From Pleomorphomonas diazotrophica (GTDB taxonomy: Bacteria > Pseudomonadota > Alphaproteobacteria > Rhizobiales > Pleomorphomonadaceae): a DNA stretch of 64,000 bases. The notes beneath the pieces were generated by a model. That model saw nothing but the letters and a program-made list of their open reading frames with translations, ran no database searches and was not told the origin of the DNA. The stretch covers positions 62,001 to 126,000 of the forward strand of contig NZ_PJNW01000003.1 of NCBI RefSeq assembly GCF_002844595.1. Reading direction: 5' to 3'. The position numbers were made by a program, and so were the translations under genes. Positions 1,271 through 11,529 of this stretch are shown in pieces. The stretch's first letter is position 1. Each line of letters begins with the position of its first letter.

Positions 1271-2350
1271 CTAAAGCCGCCAGCCGGTGCCGACGTCGAA
1301 GAAGGACGCCTTCTGGATGTCGATGGTGACCGGGAAGGTGCTGTCCGCCTCGCAGCCGTCGTCCTGCCCCACGAGATGCGACAGGCTGATGCCGTCGAAG
1401 GTGGACCAGGCGAGAATGCTGCTGCCCATGGGCTCGATCAGCGACACCTTTCCTTCGATGGCCTGCGCCTCTCCCTTGGCGGGGAGGATGTGTTCCGGGC
1501 GGAGGCCGAGCACGGCTGGCCGGCCGCTCTCGATCTTCTGGGCGAAGGGATAACGGCTGACATCCAGACGGAAGTCGCCGGCCACAAAGACCAGACGATC
1601 GCCATCGGCGACGATCTTCCCCTCGACCTTGTTCATCGCCGGCGAGCCGAGGAAGCTGCCGACGAACTCGTTGGCCGGCTTGTTGTAGACGTTGAGCGGC
1701 GTGTCGAGCTGCTGGATGATGCCATCCTTCATGACCGCGATGCGATCGGCGAGCGTCAGCGCCTCGATCTGGTCGTGGGTCACGTAGATCATGGTCGACT
1801 TCAGCGTCTTGTGCAGTTTCTTGATCTCAAGGCGCAGCTCGGCGCGGAGCTTGGCGTCGAGATTGGACAGTGGCTCGTCGAACAGGAAGATGTCGGCATC
1901 GCGCACCAGGGCGCGGCCGATGGCGACGCGCTGACGCTGGCCGCCGGAAAGAGCCGACGGCTTGCGGTCGAGCAGATGGGTGATCTGCAACAGGTCGGCC
2001 GCCCATTTCACCTTCTTCTCGATGATCGCCCGGTCGATGCCGGCGATGCGCAGGCCGAAAGAGAGGTTCCGCTCGACGCTCATGGTCGGATAGAGCGCGT
2101 AGGACTGGAACACCATGCCGATGCCGCGGTCCTTGGGATCGGTCCAGGTGACGTCCTTGTCGTTGAACAGGATGCGGCCGCCGCTGACGTCGGCGAGGCC
2201 GCCGATGGCGCTCAGAAGCGTCGACTTGCCGCAGCCGGACGGCCCGAGCAGCACGAGGAACTCGCCGTCCTCAATCGTCAGGTCGAGGTTCTTGACGATC
2301 GGCACATTGCCGTAGCTGATCTCGAGGTTTTGCAGGGAAACTGAACTCAT
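1271..2350 (-). CDS. sugar ABC transporter ATP-binding protein of the divergent importer operon
   Basis: A 359-residue MalK/UgpC-type ATPase with Walker A GPSGCGKST, signature LSGGQRQR, LFDEPLSNLDAK and VTHDQIEALT, followed by a TOBE-type regulatory domain. It is the last gene of the minus-strand operon binding protein - permease - permease - ATPase (5445 to 1271) and starts 3 bases after the stop of the second permease, so translation is probably coupled. It would energise import of the sugar or sugar acid handled by the phosphorylase genes on the other side of the LacI regulator. It is similar to the ATPase at 166 but clearly a separate gene in the opposite direction. Confidence 0.93.
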   Translation of the reverse strand: MSSVSLQNLEISYGNVPIVKNLDLTIEDGEFLVLLGPSGCGKSTLLSAIGGLADVSGGRILFNDKDVTWTDPKDRGIGMVFQSYALYPTMSVERNLSFGLRIAGIDRAIIEKKVKWAADLLQITHLLDRKPSALSGGQRQRVAIGRALVRDADIFLFDEPLSNLDAKLRAELRLEIKKLHKTLKSTMIYVTHDQIEALTLADRIAVMKDGIIQQLDTPLNVYNKPANEFVGSFLGSPAMNKVEGKIVADGDRLVFVAGDFRLDVSRYPFAQKIESGRPAVLGLRPEHILPAKGEAQAIEGKVSLIEPMGSSILAWSTFDGISLSHLVGQDDGCEADSTFPVTIDIQKASFFDVGTGWRL

Positions 2351-2353
2351 GGC

Positions 2354-3244
2354 TTAACCCTTCACGGCACCGGAGGCGATGCCGCGCACGAACCAACGGC
2401 CGGACACCAGATAGACGGTGAGTGGCACCAGCGAGGTGAGCACGGTTGCCGCCATGTTGACGTTGTAGGCGCGCTCGCCGGTGGTGGTGTTGACGATGTT
2501 GTTGAGCTGGACGGTCATCGGCAGGTTCTCGCGTCCCGCAAAGACGAGGCCGAGCAGGAAGTCGTTCCAGATGGCCGTCACCTGCATGATCACCGCGACG
2601 ATGGCGATCGGCACCGACATCGGCAGGATGATCGAGATGAAGATCTTCCAGAAGCCGGCGCCGTCGATGCGCGCCGCCTTGAACAGCTCGACCGGCAGGC
2701 CCGAGTAGTAGTTGCGGAACAAGAGCGTCATCACCGGCATGCCGAAGATGATGTGTGTAATGACGATGGCGGGCAGCGAACCGTAGATGCCGGTCTGGGC
2801 GTAGAAGCGCACCAGCGGGTAGATGAATACCTGGTAGGGAACGAACGAACCGAGCAGCAGGCAGGCAAACAGCACGTTGGCGCCCTTCACCTTCCAGAAG
2901 GACAATGCATAGCCGTTGATGGCACCGAGCAGGATGGAGAAGATGACGCTCGGCACCAGGATCTTCACGGAGTTGCCGAAGCCAACCTGAAGCCCTGTGC
3001 ATTCGAGCCCAGTGCAGGCCGACGTCCAGGCCTTTATCCAGGCATCGATGCTGAACTGTTGCGGCAGCGAGAAGATCAGGCCGAGGCGGATCTCATCCAT
3101 GCTCTTGAACGATGTGACGAGCATCACGTAGAGCGGCAGCAGGAAGAACAGCGCAAGGACGCCGAGGAAGGCGTAGATGCCGATGCGCCCCCAGACCTCC
3201 TGATAGGTGAGCGGACGCTTGGTGGCGGTGGACCGTTTGGACAT
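2354..3244 (-). CDS. sugar ABC transporter permease (MalG/UgpE type)
   Basis: A 296-residue inner-membrane permease of the MalG branch with about six membrane segments. The EAA-type loop that docks on the ATPase reads ELFKAARIDGAGFWKIF, followed by ILPMSVP. The start at 3244 (MSKRSTATKRPL) is chosen because its ATG overlaps the TGA of the first permease by one base (TGATG). The open frame extends further upstream, but only as a shadow of the first permease. An unusual insertion with two cysteines (about residues 81-86, TSACTGLECTGL) lies in the first periplasmic loop. It works with the permease at 3244-4140. Confidence 0.92.
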   Translation of the reverse strand: MSKRSTATKRPLTYQEVWGRIGIYAFLGVLALFFLLPLYVMLVTSFKSMDEIRLGLIFSLPQQFSIDAWIKAWTSACTGLECTGLQVGFGNSVKILVPSVIFSILLGAINGYALSFWKVKGANVLFACLLLGSFVPYQVFIYPLVRFYAQTGIYGSLPAIVITHIIFGMPVMTLLFRNYYSGLPVELFKAARIDGAGFWKIFISIILPMSVPIAIVAVIMQVTAIWNDFLLGLVFAGRENLPMTVQLNNIVNTTTGERAYNVNMAATVLTSLVPLTVYLVSGRWFVRGIASGAVKG

Positions 3245-4140
3245 CACGACGCCCTCCCGCTCTTCCGGAAATACTGAGAGTAGATGACGGGCGCCATGAC
3301 CAAGAGAACGGTGACGAGCATCACCGTCGATGCCGCCGTGGCGAGGCCGATGTTGGCGCGCTCGAACAGATTGTCCATGATGAACTTGGCCGGTACTTCG
3401 CTGGCCGTACCGGGGCCGCCGTTGGTCATGGCGACGACCACGTCGTACATCTTGACGATGCTGATCGACAGCAGGACGAGCGAGGTGATGATCATCGGCC
3501 GGAGCATCGGCAGGACGATCGAGAGGTAGACGCGCCAGGTCGGGATGCCGTCGATCCGCGTCGCCCGCCAGATTTCGGTGTCGACGCCGCGCAGGCCGGC
3601 AAGGATCAGCGCCATGACGAGGCCGGAGCCGTGCCAGACTGTGGCGACAATGACGGCGTAGAGCACCATCTTCGGGTTGACCACCCAGTCGAGGACGAAG
3701 CCGGTGAACCCAAGCCCATGCATGGTGTGCTGGATCCCGAGATCCGGGTTGAGGACCCACTGCCAGACGAGGCCGGCCACCACGAAGGACATGGCATAGG
3801 GATAAAGGAACACGGTGCGGAACAGGCTTTCGCCGCGCACGTTCTGATCGATGAAGATCGCCAACAGGCAGCCGAGCGCAAAGCAGATCAGCAGGAAGAA
3901 GAAGGCGATTATGACGAGGTTGCCGAGCGAGGTCAGCCAGCGCGGCGTATCGAACAGGGTGAAGTACTGGGTGAGGCCGACGAAATCGTTCTTGGGAAGC
4001 AGCTTCGAGCTCGAGAACGACAACCGGACCGACCAGGCCATGGTGCCGAGATAGGCGAAGATGACGACGACGGCCATCGGTAACAGGGCTATGTAGGCAA
4101 CGAGGTTGCGCTTCACATGCCGGGTAAGTTCGGCTCCCAC
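3244..4140 (-). CDS. sugar ABC transporter permease (MalF/UgpA type)
   Basis: A 298-residue permease with six predicted membrane segments, beginning with a basic stretch (RHVKRN) and a first hydrophobic segment near residues 12-35. The EAA-type docking loop is ATRIDGIPTWRVYLSIVLPMLRP. It forms the heterodimeric channel with the downstream permease and overlaps it by one base. It lies 63 bases downstream of the binding-protein gene, and that gap holds a stem-loop. The family is CUT1; the substrate is inferred from the neighbouring phosphorylase genes. Confidence 0.92.
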   Translation of the reverse strand: MGAELTRHVKRNLVAYIALLPMAVVVIFAYLGTMAWSVRLSFSSSKLLPKNDFVGLTQYFTLFDTPRWLTSLGNLVIIAFFFLLICFALGCLLAIFIDQNVRGESLFRTVFLYPYAMSFVVAGLVWQWVLNPDLGIQHTMHGLGFTGFVLDWVVNPKMVLYAVIVATVWHGSGLVMALILAGLRGVDTEIWRATRIDGIPTWRVYLSIVLPMLRPMIITSLVLLSISIVKMYDVVVAMTNGGPGTASEVPAKFIMDNLFERANIGLATAASTVMLVTVLLVMAPVIYSQYFRKSGRAS

Positions 4141-4162
4141 ATGCTCCTCCCTATGTGAATGA

Positions 4163-4188
4163 CGGGAAGACGGTAACCCGCCTTCCCG
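4163..4188 (-). other. stem-loop between binding-protein and permease genes
   Basis: Read on the minus strand, an 11-base arm CGGGAAGGCGG, the loop GTTA and the arm CCGTCTTCCCG form a stem with a single G-U pair. No T-run follows, so it is not a standard terminator. Its position directly after the binding-protein stop fits an mRNA-stabilising or partial-termination element, which would let the binding protein be made in excess over the permeases. Confidence 0.5.
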
Positions 4189-4203
4189 CGTCTTGAAGCA
4201 GGA

Positions 4204-5445
4204 TCAGCCCTTGAGGGCCTTCTCGAACCGCTCGACTGCCTGATCGACGGTCATCGGCGTGTTCCACAGCTCGGTGACGATGTCCTGCACGGAACCATAG
4301 ACCGACTCTTCCATCATCTGGGACGCATCGGGCGCCTGACGGGCCGGATCGGACATGATCTTCATGCCGAGCTGGGCGCAGGCGTCGAGGCTCGCCACGT
4401 CGACGTCAGAGCGGATCGGGATCGAGCCCTTCAGGTTGTTGAACTTCACCTGGACATCAGGCTGGGTCATGATCTCGACCAGCAGGTTCTGGGCCTTGAC
4501 CTTCTCGGCATCATCGGTCTTCGGGAAGACGAAGACGTCGCCGCCGAGGACGTAGGGGGAGTCAGGGCGAAGGCCGGGAATGCAGCCATAGTCCTTGCCG
4601 ATTTCCTTGTTGGCCTGCTTGAACTCACCCTTGGCCCAGTCGCCCATCACCTGGAAGCCGGCCTCGTTCTTGATCAGGAGCGCCGTGGTGTCGTTCCAGT
4701 TGCGTCCGGGCGAGGCCTGATCGACATAGGGCTTCAGGCTGATGAAGGTCTCGATGACCTTGCGGAACTCCGGCGAGCGGATCGCCGCCTCGTCCTTGTC
4801 GCCGTAGACGGACTTCCAGAGCGTGCCACCGCCGACATTGGTGAGCATGGCCGAGAACAGCGAGTTCTCCTGCCAGCGCTGACCGCCGAGGGCGAGCGGG
4901 GTGATGCCGGCCGCCTTGAGCTTGTCGAGGGCGGCAAAGAACTCGTCCATGGTTTCCGGCGGCTTCTCGACGCCGGCCTTGCTGAGGGCGGCGTTGGAGT
5001 ACCAGATCCACAGGGGCATGTGGATGTTCACCGGCGCGGCGTAATACTTGCCGTCGACCTTGACCGCCTTGGCGATCGGCGCCGGCAGAACCTTGTCCCA
5101 GTTGTTCTTGGTGGCGACTTCATCAATGTCGTTGAGCAGTCCCTCGCCAATGATCTCGTGATACTGGCGCGAGGTGTTGAACAGCGCGGCCGTCGAGGGA
5201 TCGCCCCCGACGATGCGGTTGATGGCGGCGCTACGGGCAGCCGAGCCACCGGCGACCGCGTTGTCCACCCACTTGCCGCCTGCCGCGTTGAAGGCGTCAG
5301 CGAAGACCTTGATGGCAGCGGATTCGCCACCCGACGTCCACCAATGGATGACCTCGGCGTTCAGCGGCTCCTGCGCCTTGGCAACGCCGGTTGCAGCCAT
5401 AAGGGCGATCGCCGACACGGCGACCATCTGTTTCATTCCGATCAT
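4204..5445 (-). CDS. sugar ABC transporter substrate-binding protein
   Basis: A 413-residue periplasmic binding protein of the CUT1 type (SBP_bac_1). It starts with a signal peptide (MIGMKQMVAVSAIALMAATG, likely cut after AKAQ). The next segment, NAEVIHWWTSGGESAAIKVF, is the family's hallmark N-terminus. The ATG at 5445 is preferred because GGGAG lies 5 bases upstream; an in-frame TTG at 5457 would swallow that ribosome site. It is the first gene of the minus-strand importer operon, divergent from the LacI regulator with the operator between them. Given the phosphorylase, gluconokinase and dehydratase opposite, the ligand is inferred to be a cello-oligosaccharide or cellobionate; this is not shown by the sequence itself. 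Confidence 0.92.
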   Translation of the reverse strand: MIGMKQMVAVSAIALMAATGVAKAQEPLNAEVIHWWTSGGESAAIKVFADAFNAAGGKWVDNAVAGGSAARSAAINRIVGGDPSTAALFNTSRQYHEIIGEGLLNDIDEVATKNNWDKVLPAPIAKAVKVDGKYYAAPVNIHMPLWIWYSNAALSKAGVEKPPETMDEFFAALDKLKAAGITPLALGGQRWQENSLFSAMLTNVGGGTLWKSVYGDKDEAAIRSPEFRKVIETFISLKPYVDQASPGRNWNDTTALLIKNEAGFQVMGDWAKGEFKQANKEIGKDYGCIPGLRPDSPYVLGGDVFVFPKTDDAEKVKAQNLLVEIMTQPDVQVKFNNLKGSIPIRSDVDVASLDACAQLGMKIMSDPARQAPDASQMMEESVYGSVQDIVTELWNTPMTVDQAVERFEKALKG

Positions 5446-5513
5446 GGTTCCTCCCAAACGGATTAGCCAAGGCGCCCATAGGGCAAACTTGGATGTCCAA
5501 CGGCTCCCGATCC

Positions 5514-5537
5514 AAAAGTGGGATCGGTTCCATTTTT
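5514..5537. promoter_or_regulatory. LacI-family operator in the divergent importer/regulator region
   Basis: The core TGGGATCGGTTCCA (5519-5532) is an imperfect dyad with a central CG, as LacI-family proteins require. The symmetry continues outward into AAAA (5514-5517) and TTTT (5534-5537), making a 24-base dyad. The core matches the TGGGA-nCGn-TCCCA pattern known for CelR/CebR-type cellobiose regulators. It lies 69 bases upstream of the binding-protein start and about 150 bases upstream of the regulator start, so it could control both directions. Within this gap nothing else palindromic of this quality was seen except the looser repeat at 5606-5625. Confidence 0.6.
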
Positions 5538-5605
5538 GAACTTAAAGTCTTGATTTTGTCAATGCCGCTTGCGAGAAAAGCTGTGTCGGGAAAACACGCA
5601 ATCGG

Positions 5606-5625
5606 TGGGATTTTGATTTCTCCCA
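5606..5625. promoter_or_regulatory. possible second half-site pair upstream of the LacI gene
   Basis: TGGGA (5606-5610) and TCCCA (5621-5625) form an inverted repeat with 10 bases between, just upstream of the regulator gene. The half-sites equal those of the operator at 5514-5537 but the spacing is wider than a standard LacI site, so it may be a weak or auxiliary site, or chance. Confidence 0.3.
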
Positions 5626-5684
5626 TTTAAAAACAAAAGGGTAAATGATAGCGTGCTGGCTGTTCGGGTGATCGGAGTTGCGTG

Positions 5685-6728
5685 ATGGCGACCGTTAAGG
5701 ATGTGGCAAAGCTGGCTGGAGTGGGGTCAGGAACCGTCTCTCGATATATTTCTGGAACCGGTTCCGTCTCGCGCAAATCGGGCGAGAAGATCGCCCGCGC
5801 CATCGAACAGCTCAATTACCGTCCCAACAGCATGGCCCGATCGCTTTCTTCGCGCCGCTCGGATCTCATCGGCGTGTGGGTGCCGTCGCTGGAAGGCCCC
5901 TACTACCACATGATGATCCGGACGATCGAAAGCGCGCTTCGCTTGCAGGGCAAGCACATGATCCTTGCCAACGCCGAGGACGCGCAATCGAACGAGGATC
6001 GCCTCGCCCACCTCGACTACCTGATCAACCGCGACTGCGACGGCATCCTGATTTCGAGTTCGCTACAGAGCGAGTTTGAACTGGCGCGCTATGCCGAGAA
6101 ATTTTCCAATCTCGTCGTCATGAACCATCATACGGACGAGCTGGCCGGGCGCTGCTTTTCCATTGATCATGATCTCGGCGGCCGGTTGGCAGCCCGGCAT
6201 CTTGTCGAACTGGGCCACACTCGGGTTGCGACGATCACCGGCCGGCTTTCCGCGCTGGACGCCCGCCAGCGCCATGTCGCCTTTCTCGACGAGATGGCGA
6301 AACTCGGTCACCCGGTGGTTCCGGAACGCATCGTCGAAGGCGCGTTCTCCTATGCCGGCGGCGAACAGGCCGTTGCGGCGCTGCTTGCCTCAAGCGCCGA
6401 CTATTCGGCCGTGTTCTGCGGCAATGACAAGGTGGCGATGGTGCTGATCGCCGAACTGCACAAGCGCAGTATCTCGGTGCCGGGCGACGTGTCGGTCATC
6501 GGCTACGACGACGTCGAGTTTACGCCCTACACCGCCCCTGCCCTCAGCACGATCCACGCGCCGATCGAAGAGATGAGTCAGTCGGCCTGTCATCAGCTTC
6601 TCAACCTCACCTACGGCCTCGAACTCCCTTACCAGGAGCACTTCGAGCCGTCGCTTTCGGTGCGGCAATCAACAGGATCGTGCAGCCTCCAGCTCGCCCA
6701 GTGCCCCGACGGGCGCATGGCGGTCTAG
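5685..6728 (+). CDS. LacI-family transcriptional regulator
   Basis: A 347-residue repressor with an N-terminal LacI helix-turn-helix (MATVKDVAKLAGVGSGTVSR) and a hinge helix at YRPNSMARSLSSRRSDLIG. A periplasmic-binding-protein-like ligand domain follows (GDVSVIGYDDVEF near the C-terminus). The ATG at 5685 has GGAG 8 bases upstream; a GTG three bases earlier is the alternative. It stands between the importer operon and the phosphorylase operon and is the likely local repressor of both. The inducer is inferred to be the imported disaccharide acid or a breakdown product. A further palindrome GGAACCGGTTCC (5754-5765) lies inside its own coding sequence. Confidence 0.92.
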   Translation: MATVKDVAKLAGVGSGTVSRYISGTGSVSRKSGEKIARAIEQLNYRPNSMARSLSSRRSDLIGVWVPSLEGPYYHMMIRTIESALRLQGKHMILANAEDAQSNEDRLAHLDYLINRDCDGILISSSLQSEFELARYAEKFSNLVVMNHHTDELAGRCFSIDHDLGGRLAARHLVELGHTRVATITGRLSALDARQRHVAFLDEMAKLGHPVVPERIVEGAFSYAGGEQAVAALLASSADYSAVFCGNDKVAMVLIAELHKRSISVPGDVSVIGYDDVEFTPYTAPALSTIHAPIEEMSQSACHQLLNLTYGLELPYQEHFEPSLSVRQSTGSCSLQLAQCPDGRMAV

Positions 6729-6816
6729 TCATTTGTATCGCATCGGATGATCCGAAAGCCGAAGGCACCTTTGGGTCCGATGCTCCAGCCGAATAGTCCC
6801 CTTCCGAGAGACAACG

Positions 6817-9180
6817 ATGCCCTCCTTCATCGAAAACGGAACCCGGTTCCATCTGGACGATCCCAAGCTGGCTCCCAACTCCGCCGCCTATCTCTGGAAC
6901 CGGCGGATGATGATCCAGATGAACTGCCGCGGATACGCGGTGAGCCAATACATGGACCCGGAGCCGCGCAAATACGCCCATCCGCCGATCATGCCCGGGC
7001 AGATCTTCATGCTGCCGGAGCAGGGCTATTACCCCAACCATCCCGGCCGCTTCTTCTACCTTCGCGACAACGACTCGGGCGCCCTGTTCTCAGCCCCGTA
7101 TGAGCCGGTACGAGCCGACCTCGACCGTTTCGCCTTCGAGCCGGGCCTGTCCGACATCCGCTGGCTGATCGAGAAGGACGGCGTCAGGGTCGAGCTTTGC
7201 CTCGTCCTGCCGGTGGACGACGTCGCCGAGCTCTGGACGGTGAAGATCACCAACACCACGGCCAAACGGAAGAGCCTGTCCTTCGTGCCGTTCTTCCCGG
7301 TCGGCTTCATGTCCTGGATGAACCTGGGCGGACATTTCGACCCGGCTCTCAACGCGGTGGTCTGCACCTCCGTCACGCCCTATCAGAAGATCGAGCAGTA
7401 TTTCAAAAACCAGCACCTCAAGGACATTACCTTCCTCACTGCCGACCGCCGCCCTGATCATTTCGAGGTGGCCCAACAGGCCTTCGAGGGCGAAGGCGGG
7501 CTGCATGCCCCCTCGGCGCTGGCCGACGGCGGTCACCTCCGCGGCGGCGAGGCCTATTACGAGATTCCGGCCTGCGTCATGCAGTGGGATCTCACCATCG
7601 CAGGCGGCGCGAGCGAAGACTTCCGCTTCGTGTTCGGGCCGGCAAAGGACAAGGCCGAGATCGCCGACCTCCGGGCGAAGTATATCGACGGCGACGTCGA
7701 ACAGGTCCGCCGGGACGCCCACGCCTACGTGACCGAGGGGGGTCGCAGCTGCCTGGAGATCCAGTCACCCGACGACACCTTCAACCATTTCATCAATCAC
7801 TGGCTGCCTCGTCAGGTGTTCTACCACGGCGACACCAACCGCCTCACCACCGACCCGCAGACCCGCAACTATCTGCAAGACGCGCTCGGTGTACTGTTCA
7901 TCCGGCCGCAGACGACGCGTGAGGTGATCCTGCATGCCGTGAGCCAGCAGCATGTCAGCGGCAAGATGCCGGACGGCATTCTGCTGCGGCCCGATGCCGA
8001 GCTCAAGTACATCAACCAGGTGCCGCATACCGATCACGGCGTCTGGCTGGCGATCACCGTCAAGGCCTATCTCGACGAGACTGGCGACCATTCCATCCTG
8101 GATGAACAGGTTGCCTGGACCGACGACCCGACGCCGGCCACCATCCGCGAGCATGTGACGCGCGCCCTGCGCTTCCTGGCGGCGGCCGTCGACGAGCGGG
8201 GCCTGCCCTATATCGAGCAGGGCGACTGGTGCGACCCGATGAACATGGTCGGCTACAAGGGCAAGGGCGTTTCCGGCTGGCTGGCCGAGGCGTCGAGCTA
8301 TGCCATGTCGCTGTGGTCGAAGGTTTGCGCCGCCGAGGGTGACGAGGAGACGGCAAGCTGGCTGAAGTCGGAAGCCGCTGCGTTGGTCGACAGCATCAAC
8401 CGCCATCTCTGGGACGGCGACTGGTATGGCCGCGGCATTACCGACGATGGCGTGGTCTTCGGCATTTCGACCGACAAGGAGGGCCGCATCTTCCTGAACG
8501 CCCAGAGCTGGGCGCTTCTCTGCGGGGCGGCCGACGACGACCGCAAGGCACGCATGTTGACGGCGATCGACGAACAGCTGGTGACGCCGTTTGGGGTGGA
8601 AATTCATGCGCCGTCGTTCACGGCCATGCGGGAGGATATCGGCCGCCTGACCCAGAAGTGGCCCGGCGCTGCCGAGAACGGCGCCGTCTACAACCACGCC
8701 GCCGCCTTCTATGCCGCCTCGCTCTACCATGTCGGTGAAGGCGACAGAGGCTTCCAAGTGCTGCGCGCCATGCTGACCGACCCGGAGCGGGCGGACATCG
8801 CCACGCGCGGGCAGCTGCCGCTCTACATCCCGAACTATTATCGCGGCGCCTATCGGCAGTTCCCGCGCACCGCCGGCCGTTCCAGCAACCTGTTCAACAC
8901 CGGCACGGTCGCCTGGGTTTATCGGGCAGTGATCGAGCAGCTCTGCGGCGTGCGTGGCGAAGGTGACGGAGCGGTGATCGCCCCGCAGGTTCCCTCGTCC
9001 TGGCAGACCCTCAACTTCACCCGCCGCCTGCGCGGCGCGACCTTCAACGTCGTCTTCTCGCGCGAGGATGGCCTTGCCAAGCAGATCGTCGAGATCGACG
9101 GCCAATGCGTCGAGAGTGGACGGCTTGCCGCAATCGAAGCCGGCCGTATCTATGAGGTAAGGGTGAGAAGCCCTCGCTGA
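6817..9180 (+). CDS. GH94 phosphorylase, probable cellobionic acid phosphorylase
   Basis: A 787-residue cytoplasmic enzyme (no signal peptide) of the GH94 (former GT36) phosphorylase family. It has an N-terminal beta-sandwich and an (alpha/alpha)6 barrel. The catalytic-acid motif of the family is seen as GDWCDPMNMVG with Asp near residue 470, in place of the DWND of cellobiose and chitobiose phosphorylases. GH94 enzymes split beta-glucosides with phosphate to sugar 1-phosphate. The length (about 790) and the genes directly downstream (gluconokinase, 6-phosphogluconate dehydratase) point to cellobionic acid phosphorylase, which gives glucose 1-phosphate and gluconate. Cellobiose or another beta-glucoside is the main alternative; neither would explain the gluconate genes as well. 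Confidence 0.75.
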   Translation: MPSFIENGTRFHLDDPKLAPNSAAYLWNRRMMIQMNCRGYAVSQYMDPEPRKYAHPPIMPGQIFMLPEQGYYPNHPGRFFYLRDNDSGALFSAPYEPVRADLDRFAFEPGLSDIRWLIEKDGVRVELCLVLPVDDVAELWTVKITNTTAKRKSLSFVPFFPVGFMSWMNLGGHFDPALNAVVCTSVTPYQKIEQYFKNQHLKDITFLTADRRPDHFEVAQQAFEGEGGLHAPSALADGGHLRGGEAYYEIPACVMQWDLTIAGGASEDFRFVFGPAKDKAEIADLRAKYIDGDVEQVRRDAHAYVTEGGRSCLEIQSPDDTFNHFINHWLPRQVFYHGDTNRLTTDPQTRNYLQDALGVLFIRPQTTREVILHAVSQQHVSGKMPDGILLRPDAELKYINQVPHTDHGVWLAITVKAYLDETGDHSILDEQVAWTDDPTPATIREHVTRALRFLAAAVDERGLPYIEQGDWCDPMNMVGYKGKGVSGWLAEASSYAMSLWSKVCAAEGDEETASWLKSEAAALVDSINRHLWDGDWYGRGITDDGVVFGISTDKEGRIFLNAQSWALLCGAADDDRKARMLTAIDEQLVTPFGVEIHAPSFTAMREDIGRLTQKWPGAAENGAVYNHAAAFYAASLYHVGEGDRGFQVLRAMLTDPERADIATRGQLPLYIPNYYRGAYRQFPRTAGRSSNLFNTGTVAWVYRAVIEQLCGVRGEGDGAVIAPQVPSSWQTLNFTRRLRGATFNVVFSREDGLAKQIVEIDGQCVESGRLAAIEAGRIYEVRVRSPR

Positions 9181-9199
9181 GATAGGCCGGGAGGAACCG

Positions 9200-9712
9200 A
9201 TGATCGTTATCGTCATGGGGGTATCGGGGGCGGGAAAGACCACCGTCGGCGAGTTGCTCGCCGATCGGATGGGCTGCGGCTTCTCCGACGCCGACGATTT
9301 CCACCCCGCCGCCAATGTCGAGAAGATGCGGGCAGGGATTGCGCTTACCGACGACGATCGCTGGCCGTGGCTGAAGGCGCTCCGGCAGGCCATCGAAGAC
9401 TGGCAGGCTGCCGGAGAAAGCCGTGTCATCGCCTGTTCGGCCTTGAAAGATGCCTATCGGGACGTGCTCTCGCCGCGTGACGACGTTGTCTTCGTCTACC
9501 TCAAGGGCGATACCGAGACGATTGCCTCCCGGCTCAAAGCCCGCAAGGGCCACTATATGAACCCCAACTTGCTGACGAGCCAGTTCGCCGCTTTGGAAGA
9601 GCCTGCCGACGCCGTCGTAGTTGACATTGCCCCGCCGCCGGCGACTGTTGTCGACAACATCACGGCCCAGCTCGACGCACGCGGATTTCATCAGGAAAAG
9701 AGACCGACATGA
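9200..9712 (+). CDS. gntK: gluconokinase
   Basis: A 170-residue kinase that phosphorylates gluconate to 6-phosphogluconate with ATP in the cytoplasm. Walker [10 protein letters not shown] is at residues 7-15, followed by the family motifs [25 protein letters not shown] and the lid region [10 protein letters not shown]. Length and motifs match the GntK family closely. It starts 19 bases after the GH94 phosphorylase and overlaps the dehydratase start by four bases (ATGA). The gluconate it uses is therefore most simply the product of that phosphorylase. Confidence 0.94.
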
Positions 9713-11529
9713 CCGTTCGCTCCATCGTCGCCGACGTCACCGAGCGCATAGAGCGACGCAGCCGAGCAAGCCGCACCGCCTATCTCGATGATATCGAAAG
9801 GGCGCGCGAGGCGATCCGCGCCGCCGGCCCGGCGCGCCACCGTCTGCCCTGCTCCAACCTGGCGCATGGTTTCGCCGCCTGTCCGGCCGACGACAAGCAG
9901 CGTCTGACCGGCACCGAGGCCATCAACCTCGGCATCGTCACCACCTACAACGACATGCTCTCGGCGCACCGGCCTTATGAGCGCTATCCGGAGCTGATCC
10001 GCGAGGAAGCCCGCCGGCTCGGCGCAGTCGCCGAGGTGGCCGGTGGAGCGCCCGCCATGTGCGACGGAATCACGCAGGGCCGTACCGGCATGGAGTTCAG
10101 CCTGTTCTCGCGGGACGTCATCGCCATGTCGACGGGAATCGCCCTGTCGCATGACATGTTCGATGCCGCGCTGATGCTGGGCATCTGCGACAAGATCGTT
10201 CCCGGCCTGGTCCTGGGTGCGCTGGCCTTCGGTCACCTGCCAACCGTGTTCGTCCCCTCCGGCCCCATGCCGACCGGCCTCGGCAATGCCGAGAAGAACG
10301 CCGTCCGTCAGGCCTATGCCGCCGGCACCGCCACCGAGGCCGATCTTCTGGAGGCAGAGGCGAAATCCTATCATTCGCCGGGCACCTGCACCTTCTTCGG
10401 GACGGCCAACACCAACCAGATGCTGATGGAGATCATGGGGCTGATGCTGCCTGGTTCGGCCTTCGTGGCACCCGACACGCCGCTGCGCGACGCACTGACC
10501 CGCGCCGCCGTGGCTCAGGCCGTCGCCATCGCCGGAACGGGCGACAACAGCCTGCCGATCGGCCGGTTGCTCGACGCACGCAGCTTCGTCAATGGCATCG
10601 TCGGCCTCAGCGCCACCGGCGGTTCGACGAATCTCACCATCCACCTGATCGCCATGGCGCGCGCCGCCGGCCTCATCGTCGATTGGGACGATTTCTCGGC
10701 GCTGTCGGCCGCAACGCCGCTGCTGGTCCGCGCTTATCCCAACGGCAAGGCCGACGTCAACGGCTTCCGAGACGCCGGCGGCGTCCCCTTCCTGGTGCGC
10801 GAGCTGAGGCGGGCCGGCCTATTGCACGACGACGCCCAGACCATTCTGGGTACCGGCCTCGCGCCCTACGAGTGCACGCCCGAGCTCGACGCCACGGGCA
10901 CCCTGGTGTTCGCCGAAACGCCGCTTGTGAGCGCCGACGACAGCGTGGTTCGTTCGATCGATACTCCCTTCCAGCCGACCGGCGGCATCAACCTTCTGAC
11001 CGGCAATCTCGGACGCGCGGTGATCAAGTCGTCGGCCGTCGCCGTCGAGCATCAGACGGTCGAGGCACCGGCGCGCGTCTTCGCCTCGCAGGAGGCGTTC
11101 TTGTCGGCTTTCAAGGCCGGGCTCGACGAGGATTTCGTCGCCATCGTCCGCTTCCAGGGACCGCAGGCCAACGGCATGCCGGAACTTCACAAGCTGACGC
11201 CGGCGCTCGGCCTGCTGCAGGACCGAGGGCGCAAGGTGGCTCTCGTCACCGACGGCCGCATGTCCGGCGCCTCCGGCAAGGTGCCGGCCGCCATCCACGT
11301 GACGCCGGAAGCGGCGCGCGGCGGGCCGATCGGCCGTGTTCAGGATGGCGACATCGTCAGGCTCGACGTGGCGACCGGTCGCTTGGATGTGCTGTTGCCG
11401 CAGGACGAGTGGGACAGCCGGCGCCAAGCCGTTGCGGAACCCGGCATCGAAGGCAGTGACCGTCGCTTGTTCGGCGTATTGCGGCGAGCAGTTGGCACGG
11501 CCGAGGAAGGGGCGACGGCTCTCGGCTGA
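9709..11529 (+). CDS. edd: 6-phosphogluconate dehydratase (Entner-Doudoroff)
   Basis: A 606-residue IlvD/Edd-family dehydratase that converts 6-phosphogluconate to 2-keto-3-deoxy-6-phosphogluconate. Iron-sulfur cysteine motifs are visible in [21 protein letters not shown] and [16 protein letters not shown], and [15 protein letters not shown] is the conserved C-terminal motif. The start overlaps gntK by ATGA, so the two are translated together. The matching KDPG aldolase (eda) is not in the window and must lie elsewhere. This gene closes the module from disaccharide acid to the Entner-Doudoroff intermediate. Confidence 0.94.

Follow-up and report, generated by a model that had tools for sequence, protein, structure and literature searches.

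Oxidised cellulose fragments are produced by lytic polysaccharide monooxygenases (LPMOs), cellobiose dehydrogenases and quinoprotein dehydrogenases. In Neurospora crassa, a route for cellobionate that consists of the transporter CBT-1, the phosphorylase CAP and a gluconokinase has been established experimentally, according to the available part of the published account (PMC4537572). The cua cluster of Ruminiclostridium cellulolyticum is described, in the accessible text of its report, as an ATP-binding cassette (ABC) importer that feeds intracellular GH94 cellobiose/cellodextrin phosphorylases with neutral cellodextrins rather than aldobionic acids (PMC6720390). E. coli also grows on cellobionate, by the AscB route with a proposed phospho-β-glucosidase; the accessible portion of the 2015 report calls the mechanism of cellobionate entry still unknown (PMC4403981). 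Here, we analyze a 64,000-nucleotide stretch of Pleomorphomonas diazotrophica DNA (contig NZ_PJNW01000003.1, positions 62,001 to 126,000; contig C22 of the 4.53 Mb source genome), referred to below as the window, whose positions 1271–11529 carry what we consider likely to be a LacI-controlled catabolic module for cellobionate. The module would share with the N. crassa route intact import, phosphorolysis and phosphorylation of gluconate; it differs in that the fungal transporter is CBT-1, and neither an ABC importer nor the 6-phosphogluconate dehydratase Edd appears in what we could consult of the N. crassa description. With the cua cluster it shares the ABC importer and an intracellular GH94 enzyme of another type; the phospho-β-glucosidase proposed for E. 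coli distinguishes the AscB route from it.

In the window, genes of a CUT1 importer on the minus strand diverge from lacI-GH94-gntK-edd on the plus strand, as determined by open reading frame listing and family scans:

1271–2350, minus strand: CUT1 importer ATPase of the UgpC/MalK type, 359 amino acids; best NCBIfam match NF008653, 422.5 bits, just below the cut-off of 432
2354–3244, minus strand: CUT1 inner-membrane permease of the MalG type, 296 amino acids from the ATG at 3244; named-model matches below curated cut-offs
3244–4140, minus strand: CUT1 inner-membrane permease of the MalF type, 298 amino acids, GTG start; named-model matches below curated cut-offs
4204–5445, minus strand: periplasmic sugar-binding protein, candidate cellobionate binder; SBP_bac_1, 92.2 bits, above the Pfam cut-off
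5519–5532, no strand: operator-like site O1, TGGGATCGGTTCCA, between the binding-protein gene and lacI
5685–6728, plus strand (open reading frame from the GTG at 5682): LacI-family regulator; LacI helix-turn-helix and sugar-binding domains over Pfam cut-offs
5753–5766, no strand: operator-like sequence TGGAACCGGTTCCG within the 5′ end of lacI, 234 bp from O1
6817–9180, plus strand: GH94 cellobionic acid phosphorylase (CBAP), 787 amino acids, by sequence comparison and GH94 domains
9200–9712, plus strand: gluconokinase of the GntK/IdnK type; TIGR01313, 173.5 bits against a cut-off of 113.75
9709–11529, plus strand: 6-phosphogluconate dehydratase (Edd); TIGR01196, 898.5 bits against a cut-off of 708.25, and 736.6 bits to 2gp4

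The eight genes, their strands, the absence of a signal peptide from the GH94 protein (judged by eye) and the four-base overlap of gntK and edd (ATGA at 9709–9712) are as an earlier note, made from the sequence alone, had described them. The CUT1 set is complete, with an SBP_bac_1-type binding protein, two MalF/MalG-type permeases and a MalK/UgpC-type ATPase, the permeases and the ATPase scoring below equivalog cut-offs. The binding protein likely starts at the ATG at 5445, which follows GGAGG, and its signal peptide was recognized by eye. No tRNA genes were found in the window by ARAGORN. The ATPase gene of a second CUT1 importer (166–1227; NF008653, 494.8 bits, above the cut-off) converges on the last gene of the module and ends 43 bases away from it.

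In comparisons with solved structures, the GH94 protein scored 1007.5 bits against 4zle and no more than 215.6 bits against every other GH94 chain. The 4zle structure is that of the characterised cellobionic acid phosphorylase Sde_0906 of Saccharophagus degradans (SdCBAP), as given in a table within the available part of a review (PMC8950772). The window protein contains the GH94 catalytic and supersandwich domains (234.3 and 81.4 bits, above Pfam cut-offs) and is 53.6% identical to SdCBAP and 55.0% identical to a Xanthomonas arboricola homologue. Its identity to GH94 proteins of other types is 25.2% (the second GH94 protein of the same genome), 26.4% (a Rhodanobacter paralogue), 26.6% (chitobiose phosphorylase) and 27.8% (the GH94 domain of cyclic glucan synthase). 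Gln190, Arg609 and Lys613 of SdCBAP are reported to be acceptor residues and Asp472 to be the catalytic residue (Nam 2015). The window protein has all four, as do 80 of 80 relatives; at the columns of Q190, R609, K613 and D472, the cellobiose phosphorylase of the same genome has His, Glu, Tyr and Asp. The latter protein, the only other GH94 protein of the genome, was assigned by its best solved match (3qde, 1154.3 bits). Cellobiose and cellobionate would thus be served by separate phosphorylases in the same genome (listed at L001:1270–3999 and at C40:160850–162133 of the own genome).

A GH94 tree of 86 rows was built by a quick procedure with SH-aLRT support only; its outgroup branches are long, and the cellobiose phosphorylase type is represented in it by the own paralogue. 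In this tree, a long branch with full support sets all 82 CBAP rows, SdCBAP included, apart from the four other GH94 rows. The window protein groups with SdCBAP and lies well away from chitobiose phosphorylase, the cyclic glucan synthase domain and the own cellobiose phosphorylase; the earlier note had proposed this identity and had named grouping with cellobiose or other phosphorylases as the result that would speak against it, and such grouping was looked for and not observed. We therefore assign the GH94 protein to the cellobionic acid phosphorylases, its activity being predicted from that of homologues. With the cellobionic acid phosphorylases SdCBAP, XCC4077 and NCU09425, it has in common the GH94 subfamily, the acceptor-site residues and the predicted reaction (SdCBAP and Xanthomonas homologues being those aligned). 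The importer-type CBAPs form one clade of 25 rows (support 95), 20 of them with an importer (the window and 19 loci) and five without. Only three columns, all conservative, differ between this clade and the 57 other CBAP rows when a 95% criterion is applied, while 171 alignment columns are invariant over all 82. A 120-amino-acid Maribacter sequence (L070_paralog), which was left out of the tree, comes from a short second GH94 fragment near the full gene (L070:15117–15479); it is 48.3% identical to the window protein and is apparently a partial CBAP copy.

The surroundings of the enzyme were compared in related loci, taken as the best 80 of 476 confirmed stretches, a set that leans towards the window's own kin; a gene was counted when its midpoint was located within 7.5 kb of the enzyme. 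An importer was present near the CBAP in 19 of the 80 loci, an MFS_2/GPH-like permease in 43, both in one (Massilia, L059) and neither in 17, ten of which are from Bacillota and some others on short contigs. Three query proteins served to score the permease; a Pfam scan was made of the L039 query only (MFS_2). The importer-lacI-GH94 layout of the window is found in the 19 importer loci, which come from Pleomorphomonas (with one locus titled only Proteobacteria), Martelella, Palleronia, Paracoccus, Vibrio and Marinomonas; it follows from this recurrence that the module is more than a chance arrangement. A lacI orthologue is present in all 19 and an ATPase orthologue in 17, the contigs of the remaining two stopping short of the gene; the contigs of L005 and L006 end within the importer. 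By GH94 protein, the nearest relatives are eight loci with 84–90% identity, from Pleomorphomonas genomes and one Proteobacteria-titled metagenome-assembled genome.

Co-inheritance of importer and enzyme was followed in an order-level sample of 397 genomes with a CBAP threshold of E ≤ 1e-150. The sample is not exhaustive: the Martelella carriers among the related loci, which we believe to be in the same order as Pleomorphomonas, are absent from the hits. CBAP was detected in 12 of the 397 genomes, all of them Pleomorphomonas (12 of the 14 genus members sampled), with one match spanning residues 1–361 only. In each of the 11 other CBAP-positive genomes, a binding-protein orthologue (91–96% identical) is located on the same contig, ca. 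2.5 kb from the CBAP gene, so that, with the own genome, 12 of 12 positive genomes contain it. Both CBAP-negative members of the genus lack the orthologue (one has a best match of 45%, the other none at E ≤ 1e-60), and binding-protein matches in six sampled genomes of sister genera are at most 53%. As judged by matching positions, the sampled genus genomes overlap with the named related loci and so cannot count as independent evidence. Between pairs of rows, distances in the importer proteins and in LacI correlate with GH94 distances (r from 0.845 to 0.980; 18 rows, L005 and L006 having been dropped for missing genes), and much of this correlation is explained by shared descent alone.

In several relatives, a scan for CG-centred palindromes picked out TGGAACCGGTTCCA or TGGAATCGATTCCA upstream of lacI, and a consensus, TGGAANCGNTTCCA, was later searched for at no more than one mismatch. 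The consensus site is present upstream of lacI in all 19 importer loci; it is also found in front of lacI in L017, L018 and L021, which contain lacI and CBAP with no importer nearby. Elsewhere in the 80 loci, which total 1.67 Mb, only two further matches lie outside lacI, one in L059, just upstream of the importer, and one in L069. The consensus derives from the loci in which it was searched for, and sites of close relatives are not independent; the informative comparison is that of alpha- with gammaproteobacterial sites. In O1, five of seven pairs are palindromic by eye, and the palindrome is complete in several relatives; O1 is the sole zero-mismatch match in the own genome to TGGRAYCGRTTCCA, a pattern partly drawn from O1 itself. 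We propose that LacI binds O1 at the divergent promoter. A second operator-like site, 230–254 bp downstream and within lacI, is seen in 18 of the 19 importer loci. In gammaproteobacteria, this site coincides with helix-turn-helix codons, as read from coordinates, and we do not claim it as an operator since coding constraint is possible; it may be a second operator and permit DNA looping, or it may be a coding coincidence.

If the module works as proposed, the binding protein would capture periplasmic cellobionate and the CUT1 transporter would import it intact. The GH94 enzyme would then convert cellobionate and phosphate to α-glucose 1-phosphate and gluconate, gluconokinase would phosphorylate gluconate to 6-phosphogluconate, and Edd together with Eda (contig C37) would complete the Entner–Doudoroff path. 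The gluconate branch of this path is complete in the genome, with GntK and Edd over curated cut-offs and eda located outside the window; edd in the window is the sole copy above the edd cut-off, and a second gntK is present on contig C12. Glucose 1-phosphate could be taken by phosphoglucomutase-family proteins encoded elsewhere (three such proteins are present in the genome). LacI, bound between the two transcription units, would probably repress both as long as neither cellobionate nor a product is present. Of what the earlier note had claimed, intact import followed by internal splitting is supported by the CBAP grouping, by co-presence or co-absence in 14 of 14 genomes and by the conserved operator-like site, with substrate and activity predicted from sequence. 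Its description of the phosphorolysis as ATP-free is true in so far as this step saves one ATP; the route overall is not ATP-free since ABC import and gluconokinase consume ATP.

A number of observations, in the operator, the phylogeny, the gene content and the binding protein, weigh against a dedicated cellobionate module. O1 was not flagged in the window by the first palindrome scan and was recognized by its likeness to sites of relatives. In the own genome, the pattern gave 10 strand hits at no more than one mismatch and the reversed-pattern control 16; on these counts, and with O1 as the one zero-mismatch site, a wider regulon was rejected. The GH94 tree puts Marinomonas inside Vibrio and the importer tree puts it outside, each placement having modest support. 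SdCBAP and the Xanthomonas homologues fall outside the importer clade, and no importer is within reach in five of the 25 clade rows, some of which are on short contigs. Near the enzyme, gntK is present in 12 of the 19 importer loci and edd in eight, which are the Pleomorphomonas-type ones.

The separate position of the importer clade, the seven importer loci with no gntK near the enzyme and the 11 with no edd there would suit a CBAP-like enzyme whose natural substrate, carried by the importer, is another acidic disaccharide, either lactobionate-like or a β-glucosyl-glucuronate derived from polysaccharide. SdCBAP also takes glucuronate as an acceptor, which points the same way. Against this stand the location of gntK and edd after the enzyme in Pleomorphomonas, which suits a gluconate product, and the 171 columns invariant across clades as compared to three conservative ones that separate them; we consider a different acidic disaccharide unlikely. 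As the only Edd above the cut-off in the genome is encoded here, the operon may also be used for gluconate in general, and one could view it as an ordinary gluconate/Entner–Doudoroff operon with a captured GH94 gene. However, importer, lacI and GH94 are the core shared over six genera and gntK and edd are the variable part, which makes a captured gene highly improbable.

The nearest solved relatives of the binding protein are glucose-binding proteins of the Pseudomonas type. Twelve glucose contacts are listed for GltB of P. putida CSV86 in the accessible text of its description (PMC7927077). Eight of them are retained in the window protein (W35, W36, E41, G68, W250, W270, D303 and K339), and four are changed (Q90, K92, N301 and H379). 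The 20 module binding proteins have the same pattern, save for one W35F and one protein that keeps Q90: none of the 20 has K92 or N301, 19 of 20 differ at Q90 and, in one alignment, all 20 differ at H379. The paralogue encoded in the own genome (43%) retains nine contacts and is likewise changed at K92 and N301. In a second alignment, both it and the module proteins shown have a gap at the H379 column. At H100, K/R221 and K242, every one of the 20 module proteins has a basic residue and the P. putida protein does not; nothing in the comparison puts these positions in the pocket. R75 was considered as a carboxylate anchor and rejected, being present in the 43% paralogue as well. The contacts would fit a protein that has kept its glucosyl subsite next to an altered one; this is weak evidence and no proof of a glucosyl-gluconate ligand. 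As two of the differences are shared by the paralogue and H379 is alignment-dependent, the twelve-contact comparison was given less weight as proof of a new ligand.

These similarities to GltB-type proteins are what one would expect if the importer served glucose or hexoses in general and were no more than a neighbour of the phosphorylase, with cellobionate entering otherwise. For the two reasons just given, we raised our estimate for such a hexose importer slightly and lowered that for the cellobionate module by as little. A hexose importer is nevertheless quite improbable, given the contacts replaced throughout the module proteins, the co-presence or co-absence of importer and enzyme in the 14 genus genomes and the fact that 43 of 44 loci with an MFS_2/GPH-like permease near the enzyme lack the CUT1 importer of the module. 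What sets the window protein apart from GltB, in addition to the four contacts (one alignment-dependent), is its linkage to CBAP and the LacI regulator.

Permease-type CBAP loci (44 of 80, L025 to L080, including L059) are from Xanthomonas, Pseudoxanthomonas, Oxalobacteraceae, Rheinheimera, Cellvibrionaceae, Maribacter and others. In all four fetched Xanthomonas loci, the enzyme is beside such a permease, in which they differ from the window. Because three separating columns stand against 171 invariant ones and the transporter is swapped, we read the two kinds of loci as one reaction with two transporter classes, the MFS_2/GPH-like permease being the second candidate class of cellobionate transporter. 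The Massilia locus contains, besides the permease, a divergent CUT1 importer copy near CBAP (L059:1468–5716), with an operator-like site 50 bases past the 5′ end of the binding-protein open reading frame. A Gfo/Idh/MocA-like oxidoreductase gene is located near CBAP in 16 of the 80 loci (for example, L013:8087–9100, L017:7727–8713, L022:3308–4303 and L039:12373–13395; the L022 protein was scanned against Pfam), and its product might act on an oxidised sugar.

As to the supply of cellobionate, LPMOs of the own genome were dropped as a source: the AA10 search gave no match, other LPMO families not having been searched. GH5 gave one weak match (35.3 bits against a cut-off of 23.5), other cellulase families likewise not having been searched. 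A membrane pyrroloquinoline quinone (PQQ) glucose dehydrogenase is encoded in the genome (1173.8 bits against a cut-off of 832.65). A quinoprotein glucose dehydrogenase of Pseudomonas taetrolens converts cellobiose to cellobionate, according to the available portion of the report (PMC10239384). Since there is no AA10 match and the PQQ enzyme is present, cellobionate may be scavenged after the action of other organisms' LPMOs and dehydrogenases or may be made by own periplasmic oxidation. We tentatively suggest, as possible though doubtful, an oxidise-first route in which the periplasmic PQQ glucose dehydrogenase makes cellobionate from cellobiose and the CUT1 importer, CBAP, GntK and Edd consume the product, beside the neutral cellobiose phosphorylase.

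In the open-access literature on cellobionate and its uptake, as far as it could be consulted, we found neither a CUT1-CBAP module nor a bacterial ABC importer for cellobionate, in agreement with the earlier note, which knew of no such module. Enzymes of this type have been described before, but their association with a dedicated ABC importer and a regulator of their own appears to be undescribed. Should the oxidise-first route be true, this would be the first bacterial cellobionate importer identified, as far as literature searches show. The cluster supplies a concrete candidate importer, a regulator with a likely operator and a comparative pattern in which the same enzyme is accompanied by either an ABC importer or an MFS_2/GPH-like permease, and it may provide parts for engineered growth on oxidised biomass.

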